Shown: piece by piece, positions 22,141-25,510 of the stretch
How positions within the stretch are numbered: the first letter of the stretch is position 1
How the letters are laid out: each line of letters starts with the position of its first letter
NCBI RefSeq assembly: GCF_009765865.1
Contig: NZ_LMUQ01000076.1
Span: 177,779-212,646, forward strand
DNA from: Acidisoma sp. L85
GTDB lineage: Bacteria; Pseudomonadota; Alphaproteobacteria; Acetobacterales; Acetobacteraceae
Reading direction: 5' to 3'
Length of the DNA stretch: 34,868 bases
Position numbers and translations under genes: made by a program
Notes under the pieces: generated by a model
Databases searched by the model: none
The model's input: the letters and a program-made list of their open reading frames with translations, nothing else
Told to the model about the DNA's origin: nothing

Positions 22141-22836
22141 CGGACGGAGCTATCCCAAGACCGCCTGAACCGCCAGCGGGAAGGCGGCATGGCGGGGGCG
22201 ATTGTGTGTCTTCGGGTCGTATCGGGAAGTTCCACGGTCCGCACTCGAGTGACCGGCACGTTTTGTCCGCCGGAGCTTCAGCGCCGATCAACCTCCCGGC
22301 AGCGAGATGCGCATTGCTGAAAAACCACTTCGAGGGTCCACCATGATCCCATTCGAACTGCTGTCGGCTGCAGCCGGGCTTCTGCCAAACTCGGTGAGAG
22401 GGCGTTGCGACCTTTCCCAATTCGCGTAACTGGCCGCTATCGCCAAGACACCGGCATCCTTGGCGCACCGCCGCATACTGGGATCCAGGCACCGCGCGAC
22501 GCTATTGGGCGAGGCATAATGCCGTTCGGGCACGCCGCTAGCTCCAAAGGCTTGAACGTCATCAGAATTTTCCTCCGCCCACCGCCCGATTTAACGCTCG
22601 CAAGAGTGTTAACGTGCAAACTGCACCGGCATGCGGTTGGGACCATCGGTGATCAGGCAGGCCACGCCTATCGCCTATTCAAACCAGCATGCAGAGGCTT
22701 GCAGCTGACAAGGTGTGCCGCGATGGTCGCAATAGTTACTCGGCAAGACCCCGCGTCATGGGTGGGACACTCCAAGGTCGCGCAAAATGCCGGAGCGTTC
22801 CAGCATGCTTTGCAAGTTCGTAGACCAGCGGCACAG
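22141..22836. other. Poorly coding 700-base stretch between thrC and the PP2C-like gene
   Basis: I see no recognisable gene here. On the plus strand the frame of the downstream phosphatase stays open back to 22405, but the translation is composition-like noise (many Arg, His and Pro, no motif). A minus-strand frame (22100-22492) overlaps the 5' end of thrC and is not protein-like either. Base composition is less GC-rich than the neighbouring genes. It must contain the thrC promoter and the start region of the phosphatase. It may be decayed sequence. Confidence 0.5.
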
Positions 22837-23787
22837 GTGAGGCACGCCCCCGAAACTACCACGGTCGCCGCCCGCCATCACATGGGCTACGGCGACGGCC
22901 GCTATCCTGACCAGCAGGATCGCGCCTTTTGGGGAACCAGCTCCCACATAGCCGACGCCAGAACGGCTAGAGAATTGCTGTGCCGAGCCGTGAAAGACAT
23001 CGACGACGCGACACAGCACTATATTGAAGGCGGTTCGACACTAAGCGCCGCCATCCTCACACCGGATCATAAGCTGACAACCCTGCAGATCGGCGACAGC
23101 CCCTTGGGTTACGTCTTGGTCAATAGAAGGACCGGAAAAGCCGACCTGCGCGATCTGACCGAAGACCAGAGTCCAGACGCACCGGCTGAGCTCGCGAGGA
23201 TCAAGAGGCGGGGCGGTAAGGTCGAGCACGGCCGCCAGGTCAATGGTAACGCGGATCTTGCACTTGCTCGGAGCTTCGGCGACCGTGAGTTCGTCGGCAT
23301 TACCGCCAAACCAACCATCCAGACGCTCGATCTGAATCAGGTTCTTGCCAATCCCGATATCGACGTCTTTGTGTTCTGTGCCAGCGACGGCCTGATTGAA
23401 TGCAACGACACAAAAGATTTCGAGGCCGAGTTCAAGCCGGGAGACAAGTCCGCGGATATCGCGAGACGCTGTATAGACCGCGCCCTCAAGAGCGCGGAGA
23501 AGGCGGGGGTGAAAAAGGGCGACAATATCTCCGTCTCCATCGCTCGGCTGAAACGAGATTCCAAGGTCGCCACCTACATTGGCGTGGCCGACGGCCATGG
23601 CGAAAACGCCGCCGAGGTGGCGGCCACGGTGCGGTCCGGCATCCACCATGCGCTTCATGCGCGCGAGACCGAGTCTGGGACGAGCCGGCGACATCATGCC
23701 TCAGCAAGGCCTCGGCTGGCAGCGCCTGAGCAATTGGCTGCGGCAGCAACATCTGCTGGCGAGCAGACAACAGGTGTTACAGGTTGA
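22837..23787 (+). CDS. PP2C-type protein phosphatase with rearranged motif order
   Basis: PP2C enzymes are metal-dependent Ser/Thr phosphatases. Numbered from the GTG at 22837 (316 residues), the motifs are a motif-1-like GRYPDQQDR (21-29), GGSTL (65-69) and IGDSPLGYVLV (from about 85). These are followed by the DQSP..E..RI..RGG block, LALARSFGD, FCASDGLIE (180-188) and GDNISVSIARL (228-238). The metal-binding VADGHGENAAE, normally between motif 1 and GSTL, instead lies at 250-260, after the last motif, preceded by a strand-like KVATYIG and followed by a helix. All metal aspartates are therefore present but in shuffled order. The start is uncertain: ATG 22882 is also possible, but the strand TTTVAARHH before it looks real. 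The gene is alone on its strand with composition unlike its neighbours, suggesting transfer. The 243 bases after it hold nothing recognisable. Confidence 0.75.
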   Translation: MRHAPETTTVAARHHMGYGDGRYPDQQDRAFWGTSSHIADARTARELLCRAVKDIDDATQHYIEGGSTLSAAILTPDHKLTTLQIGDSPLGYVLVNRRTGKADLRDLTEDQSPDAPAELARIKRRGGKVEHGRQVNGNADLALARSFGDREFVGITAKPTIQTLDLNQVLANPDIDVFVFCASDGLIECNDTKDFEAEFKPGDKSADIARRCIDRALKSAEKAGVKKGDNISVSIARLKRDSKVATYIGVADGHGENAAEVAATVRSGIHHALHARETESGTSRRHHASARPRLAAPEQLAAAATSAGEQTTGVTG

Positions 23788-24030
23788 GCTGATCGTTAGA
23801 GGCGGCTGTGAAGCAGCCTTGAGCCCCGTTGGCTCAGCGGCACCGAGGCCACGAATGGAGCGACCAAAAGTCGATCAAGAGATTGAAGTGTTCTGCGATG
23901 GAAGTGTGACGTTGCCAGCACGATACGACGTTCGCGGATAGCCCATTGCGATGCTAGTGTTGAGAGATGCCGCAGCGGGCGCCGGTGTCTAGCCTCATGA
24001 CAGCTTCATCGACGCTCCGGAGCGAGGCGT

Positions 24031-24468
24031 CTATCGCCGGTAAGGCGAAGGCAGCAGCGCGCGCACCGGCAGCTTGATGGGCGCCAGCAGCCCCGGCAGG
24101 ATCACCCGCGCTTCCGGGTCATAGTCCAGGATCATCTCCCGGCACGCGCCACAGGGCGAGACTATGGCGAGGCTCTGGTCGTCCTCTCCTGGCTTCGGAT
24201 GGCGGATCGCGACTGCCGTCTCGATCGTTCCGTCGCCTTCGAGAATGGCACGACCGAGAGCCACGGCTTCAGCGCAGACCTGCAGCCGGCCGACCGTCGC
24301 GCCTAGATGAATACCCGTCCAGACACGTCCGTCCCGCCCGCGCAGCGCGGCCGAGACCATGTGCCAGAAGGGCCGGTAATGCCGCGCGAGCGTCTCCCGC
24401 GCGGCCGCGATCAGTTCGTCATCCGCCTCGGTAAGCGGTTCGGCGGGGTCCAAGGCCCCGGCATCCAC
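24031..24468 (-). CDS. Cytidine-deaminase-like zinc deaminase
   Basis: This 145-residue protein has the zinc-deaminase core CAEAVALG (catalytic Glu with a Cys ligand) and SPCGACREMILDYDP (PCxxC zinc ligands). That places it with the CDD/blasticidin-S-deaminase branch, which act on free cytidine-type nucleosides. The first 20 residues are not conserved. It begins with GTG one base after the recA stop (TGA-C-GTG), so it is probably translated from the recA message and may share SOS control. The actual substrate (cytidine, deoxycytidine or a nucleoside antibiotic) cannot be read from the sequence. An ordinary salvage cytidine deaminase is the default interpretation. Confidence 0.82.
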   Translation of the reverse strand: MDAGALDPAEPLTEADDELIAAARETLARHYRPFWHMVSAALRGRDGRVWTGIHLGATVGRLQVCAEAVALGRAILEGDGTIETAVAIRHPKPGEDDQSLAIVSPCGACREMILDYDPEARVILPGLLAPIKLPVRALLPSPYRR

Positions 24469-24469
24469 G

Positions 24470-25510
<1,041 letters not shown>

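Follow-up and report, generated by a model that had tools for sequence, protein, structure and literature searches.

Can a strand and a helix that carry part of a metal site change their place in the order of a protein phosphatase while the metal-binding residues are kept? This question is raised by a gene in a 34,868-nt stretch of DNA from Acidisoma sp. L85 (hereafter the window, meaning the whole stretch). PP2C is a very widespread fold of Ser/Thr phosphatases, and the order of its motifs is, to our knowledge, treated as fixed. The first-pass annotation of the window had read motif 1, GSTL, GDSP, ARSFGD, ASDG and GDN in one gene, with DGHG last, and translation of the frame agrees: ADGHG, at 23587 on the plus strand, is the final motif in order. 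The distance from GDN to DGHG, given there as about 20 residues, was measured as 23 (Asp229 to Asp252), and the metal aspartates, all of which had been said to exist, are located at D28, D184, D229 and D252. The features are listed below; the motifs from GGSTL to GDN are read directly from the sequence.

22159..24034, no strand: island flanked by the thrC side and the recA side; 4/4 congeners lack it at this site
22837..23787, plus strand: permuted PP2C gene (PF00481, E 8.5e-18, profile positions 92-220), collinear with the relative L031
22909..22929, plus strand: motif 1, DQQDRAF, aligned to QEDSAF of the relative L005 and QEDRI of L031
22948..23028, plus strand: alpha2-helix region, following motif 1 directly, with neither the DGHG strand nor alpha1 in between
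23029..23043, plus strand: GGSTL motif
23092..23103, plus strand: GDSP motif
23266..23283, plus strand: ARSFGD, the RALGD-type block
23380..23394, plus strand: ASDG motif (ASDGL) with Asp184
23518..23532, plus strand: GDN motif (GDNIS) with Asp229, where the strand that is normally last begins
23563..23667, plus strand: putative transposed segment, strand beta3 with DGHG (Asp252, Gly253) and helix alpha1 (shuffle test 0/2000)
23668..23787, plus strand: C-terminal tail of the ORF, codon score at or below -0.6 beyond about 23660

The frame is open on the plus strand over 22837-23784 (316 codons, or 316 residues from GTG 22837), and its longest ORF runs for 460 residues from a TTG at 22405; possible starts of the gene are GTG 22837, ATG 22882 or a codon further upstream. 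Only over about 23000-23660 do the codon scores of the frame come close to zero or exceed it; they are lower on either side, which leaves the start unsure and makes the last ~40 residues look non-coding; the tail is probably non-native, and the stop may have drifted. One minus-strand frame also has an above-zero codon score over much of 23120-23660, which is read as a shadow because the PP2C homology sits on the plus strand. Motif 1 of the protein has Gln in place of the Glu that is usual in this motif of PP2C, and its Arg is displaced by one residue. The alpha2 region that follows aligns in part with the sequence preceding GST in the normal-order viral PP2Cs L038 and L039, and it forms a helix (H41-62) in a low-confidence structure model.

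That the unusual order stems from misassembly, from an error in sequencing or from a rearrangement that took place recently in this genome alone is very improbable, even if the gene is single-copy (a search of its own genome with the protein returned one match, itself) and lies in an insertion, because the same order, with the same spacing, is found in L031, a complete gene that aligns collinearly; L005, also from another genome, has the same layout. L031 (genome G343), from another family of the class, is an ORF of 291 residues with QGPRDYQEDR, GSTCTIALL, GDSP, SRALGDND, ASDG, KKGDNISV and then ILLAAVFDGHGGDRVADFAAQQL, the DGHGG lying close to the stop. BLASTP aligns residues 66-263 of the window protein with residues 70-266 of L031 (E 5e-9; 61/212 identical, 29%) in a single collinear run from GST through GDN to past DGHG. 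When all six frames of 22141-24030 were scanned for DG[HMAI][GS], the C-terminal site was the only one; there is no DGHG between motif 1 and GSTL, as had been stated, and no second copy upstream in another frame of the island, the presence of which the first-pass annotation had named as speaking against its reading. Homologues in normal order, which would have pointed to a misassembled copy, are not what the nearest relatives turned out to be, and the proposed profile search for proteins of the same order yielded L031 with the full order and L005 with the layout and a decayed motif.

L005 (genome G416, L005:1372-2481) is divergent and has long inserts; its neighbours we take, from the look of their translations, to be radC-like and adenylosuccinate-lyase-like genes. 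Its alignment to the window protein spans motif 1 to GDS (24/64 identical, E 7e-8), and MMDCSSSS replaces DGHGG, so that the Gly-His-Gly is gone. Its segment is not significantly similar to DGHG segments, 1421/2000 shuffles reaching its score, and profiles of normal-order proteins match it in the core only; together with DCSS in place of DGHG, this means that L005 backs the layout by position alone. The position is, on the other hand, exact: the GDN aspartate and the aspartate at the DGHG position are 23 residues apart in all three proteins (in L031 the spacing was taken from the positions of GDNI and FDGHG). Motif 1 and GST are 38, 43 and 38 residues apart in the three permuted or permuted-like proteins, in contrast to 59-90 in all seven normal-order PP2Cs. 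These three proteins, from three families of the class, are those found in scans that were not exhaustive.

L005 may be inactive, a pseudoenzyme with the same layout, and it might be asked if the whole permuted group consists of pseudoenzymes or decaying genes in which the fold is kept and catalysis is lost. Besides the missing Gly-His-Gly of L005, this would agree with the weak coding signal at both ends of the window gene and with its lone position in an island missing from 4/4 congeners. We consider it rather unlikely, as the metal-ligand motifs (the aspartate of motif 1, the DG of DGHG and the aspartates of ASDG and GDN) are all kept in both the window protein and L031, and the codon score is mostly positive across 23000-23660.

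That a segment has actually changed its place is seen when the proteins are compared piecewise with normal-order PP2Cs. The score of the C-terminal segment of the window protein against normal-order DGHG segments was reached by none of 2000 shuffles, whereas the linker between motif 1 and GST was less distinct (95/2000), which makes a chance resemblance unlikely. A profile of three viral PP2Cs matches L031 as 9-27, 67-230, 27-51 and the window protein as 67-201, 28-43; one of seven normal-order PP2Cs matches them as 10-26, 77-242, 27-52 and as 82-243, 31-50, respectively, the small piece of the window protein alone having an E of 0.03 with each profile. Human PPM1K aligns to L031 in swapped blocks (28-64 with 240-276, and 101-222 with 69-195, at 11.9 and 14.3 bits, neither significant alone), and plant PP2C37 aligns with its residues 48-92 to the end and with 148-322 to the middle of the three-protein profile (12.0 and 24.6 bits, individually weak). 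When the segment was moved back in silico, the PF00481 score rose from 65.4 to 68.8 bits for the window protein and from 52.3 to 57.9 for L031, figures that stand without a shuffled-segment control, and the match became continuous, over profile positions 35-220 and 8-218; for L005 there was little change (14.3 to 15.1 bits). Alignments over the whole length were set aside: in one of normal-order PP2Cs with the window protein, DGHG fell against ADAR, and in one with fragments added, ASDG fell against DGHG. Owing to these mispaired motifs the second structure model was built with the core alignment A12 alone.

To which family, then, do these proteins belong? With respect to the curated PF00481 cut-off of 20.3 bits, the window protein (65.4) and L031 (52.3) lie above and L005 (14.3) below, the match being limited to profile positions 92-220 in the window protein and 86-218 in L031. 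The motifs 1, GST, GDS, RALGD-type, ASDG and GDN stand in the same relative order as in the PP2C/PPM proteins of PF00481 (PPM1K, PP2C37), and the DGHG strand with its helix is common to both; they differ in that this strand and alpha1 come last and not between motif 1 and GST. As a PP2C is recognized by DGHG between these two motifs, and DGHG is last here, the proteins are filed as a PP2C variant and not as ordinary members. Since ordered profiles score only part of their length, more permuted PP2Cs may hide among truncated-looking ones; among the 106 genomes of the class scanned with PF00481, one (G343) of the four matching genomes other than the window's own has the permuted order. The Stp1/IreP-type model NF033484, which requires at least 230 bits, gave 22.3 bits for L031, 32.4 for L005 and no match for the window protein. 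A scan of the window protein alone against the PADLOC models of anti-phage defence assigned it to no family, and in PHROGs there was one weak, unnamed match (E 0.009).

PP2Cs from viral contigs, L035, L038 and L039, are among the closest proteins of normal order that were found; in them the order is QED, DGHG or DGHS, GST, GDS, [ST]DG and DN; the core of the window protein is 26% identical to L038 over 178 columns. These viral genes (L035:4935-5684, L038:1989-2744, L039:1989-2714) have a motif 1 of the form GxRxYQEDR, and partial copies are present in L040, L041 and L042. At E 1e-3, neither the phage nor the plasmid collection contained a match to the L038 protein.

The first-pass annotation had offered a partial circular permutation via tandem duplication as one origin of the arrangement. 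The part of its reading that stands is the DGHG segment at the C-terminus; the arrangement is not circular in the strict sense because motif 1 stays N-terminal and one internal strand-helix unit has moved to the end. A present-day layout of tandem PP2C domains with a truncated second one was set aside, since only 22 residues separate the aspartates of GDN and DGHG and no second motif 1 lies there. It is doubtful, though a less remote prospect than a loss of function, that the order arose repeatedly, or that it goes back to a tandem duplication in which beta3-alpha1 was lost from the first copy and the second copy was truncated. The best tree of the core needs two order changes, and the segment of L031 pairs with PPM1K along FAADRSSILLAAVFDGHGG / FAQLTDEVLYFAVYDGHGG, a stretch which we take to lie just after motif 1 in PPM1K and which would fit a truncated second copy; no duplicated intermediate was found, however, and both the equal spacing of 23 residues in 3/3 proteins and the AU test, which leaves one clade unrejected (p 0.255), speak against a repeated origin. 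The core tree itself, of 10 proteins, is mostly unresolved (two of the seven inner branches are starred, and L005 sits on a long branch); the three permuted proteins do not group together in it, a single change occurs in 2% of the bootstrap trees, and p-AU for one clade is 0.255 with three proteins and 0.182 with the window protein and L031 only. One origin is favoured by the equal spacing but is not seen in the core tree.

That DGHG comes last, and does so again in L031, is observed; what this probably represents, in our reading, is a PP2C homologue in which a transposed beta3-alpha1 unit completes a metal-dependent phosphatase, the fold and the activity being predicted from sequence. Strand beta3, which carries the DG that binds metal in DGHG, and helix alpha1 would have moved from the gap between motif 1 and GST to a position after the last strand; after synthesis, this C-terminal unit would fold back into the slot left open by beta2 and beta4, and Asp28, Asp184, Asp229 and Asp252/Gly253 could thereby assemble the usual metal centre, which in turn would hydrolyse phospho-Ser/Thr. 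That the fold may tolerate such a change can be rationalized with the topology of the SpoIIE phosphatase domain as given in the available text of its structure paper (PMC3517971), where the sheets are ordered beta1-beta10-beta9-beta6-beta7 and beta2-beta3-beta4-beta5-beta8, alpha1 and alpha2 lie between beta3 and beta4 on top, the loop joining beta2 to beta3 sits at the base, and the N- and C-termini are near each other. By analogy with this topology, the base of the sandwich should hold both ends of the relocated unit together with the normal C-terminal end of the chain: beta3-alpha1 would begin and end there, alpha2 would begin there and the last strand would end there. All cut and paste points would then be base loops, for which reason the fold should tolerate the change, and two new base connections, from beta2 to alpha2 and from the last strand to beta3, would suffice.

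Structure prediction gave an AlphaFold2 model of pLDDT 34 for the window protein alone and of pLDDT 52 when the cores of three viral PP2Cs were added, in which strand pairing was not visible. At low confidence, the C-terminal part of the latter consists of strands 231-238 and 244-251 and a helix 258-274; with Foldseek, all nine matches of this model at E ≤ 0.001 are PP2C structures (best 6.4e-6), with query TM-scores of 0.34-0.40. In this weak model the C-terminal strands appear only about five residues apart (238 to 244), which might suit a domain-swapped dimer in which the C-terminal beta3-alpha1 of one subunit fills the gap of its partner and Asp252 is supplied in trans. A precedent, so far as the accessible text of the same paper goes, is the crystal dimer of the SpoIIE PP2C domain, in which strands 1-3 are swapped and the ligand Asp628 comes from the partner; as the same domain is a monomer in solution (PMC3517971), the swapped arrangement is an unlikely explanation for the proteins considered here, less so only than an artefact. 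The swapped crystal does indicate that beta1-3 can separate from alpha1 and refit into a PP2C core; it differs in that the chain order is unchanged there and the swap is between subunits (PMC3517971, part of text).

If the beta3-alpha1 unit is indeed transposed, regulation should be affected as well. In SpoIIE, alpha1 and alpha2 rotate as one rigid switch, a rotation which the authors propose to position the DG glycine for the M2 metal, and this element has been put forward as a common PP2C switch (PMC5468089, in the text available); it is the very element that a permuted PP2C cuts. In the permuted proteins alpha1 would follow the C-terminal DG glycine and alpha2 would be attached to motif 1, so the alpha1-alpha2 hairpin would no longer be covalently linked, and activation should differ; by analogy, the cut hairpin predicts either a constitutive enzyme or one controlled via its C-terminal unit. 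The fuller proposal, that the class harbours a lineage of active PP2Cs with a transposed beta3-alpha1 and a cut hairpin, in which the C-terminal unit may be a dockable on/off element, seems to us evenly balanced between being right and wrong. A non-cyclic rearrangement that keeps the metal-ligand aspartates would offer a test of a change in topology without loss of the metal site.

No permuted PP2C was found in the literature as far as titles and the beginnings of abstracts go, a scope with most subscription papers outside it. In the available part of the SpoIIE structure paper, "permuted" refers to a GTPase (PMC3517971), and the main text of a 2025 classification of bacterial PP2Cs does not contain "permut" (PMC12088040). 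SidD of Legionella, which is PP2C-like and known as an odd case, was considered and set aside: it has added strands and a moved flap, and "permut" is absent from the accessible text (PMC3656104). For the relation between proteasomal proteases and PP2C, circular permutation is mentioned, in the part of the paper at hand, among the changes that would be required to link the fold families (PMC5468089); that case is a hypothetical deep change between families, in contrast to the permuted proteins, where the order changes inside PP2C.

The island around the gene is about 1.9 kb long and is an insertion relative to 4/4 congeners: the thrC side is separated from the recA side by 1828-1880 bases in the window genome versus 124 (G053), 380 (G179), 96 (G217) and 79 (G130) bases in the congeners. 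The neighbours are, judged from the look of their translations, presumably thrC and a cytidine-deaminase-like gene that adjoins recA. The description of the island as poorly coding holds for its flanks as well as for the gene ends; that it is less GC-rich holds against the left side (0.58-0.61 in intervals over 22250-23999 versus 0.65-0.69), one interval to the right, 24500-24999, also having 0.61. The flanks, 22141-22836 and 23668-24030, have little coding signal in all frames. A 16-nt direct repeat (14/16) occurs in frame at 22766-22781 and 23555-23570, its second copy extending into the beginning of the transposed segment; it may be due to chance. In the congener G179 (L023, C1:179300-180800), 380 bases lie between the blocks, compared to 79-124 in the other three, and blastn gave no match of the island to this gap between the flanks. 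Searched with the island DNA, the window's genome gave no match besides the island itself, and the plasmid collection gave none.

Searches of whole genomes with the window protein returned 3/299 genomes of the family (its own and, chance-like, those of L003 and L004, rejected because their frames are antisense to ordinary-looking gene ORFs) and 2/385 of the class (its own and G416); with L005 as query, one of two genomes was returned in the family of G416 and one of two in its order, in each case L005 itself only. Profile searches gave 3/398 genomes of the phylum, 1/395 of the order (the window's own) and 1/376 of the class (G416); in the phylum, besides the window's own genome, L008 was rejected as a normal-order PP2C and L009 as a 43-position match with two stop codons. 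The PF00481 scan of the class hit 5/106 genomes: besides the window genome and G343, there were three whose PP2Cs are of normal order (L032, L033, L034, rejected for this reason). A search of 29 genomes including G343 matched in G343 alone. As G343, although within the genome range of the first class scan, was caught only by the Pfam model, the whole-genome negatives are weak. Among genome contigs, searched twice, and among phages no relative was confirmed, and on viral contigs no permuted one, the matches there being normal-order PP2Cs; plasmids, queried with the island DNA and with L005, L038 and the window protein, gave no confirmed relative. L031 matched 20 plasmid records with at most 73% query coverage and less than 30% identity; in the one examined, record H3, the PP2C gene lies beside tssM, tagF and a kinase gene.
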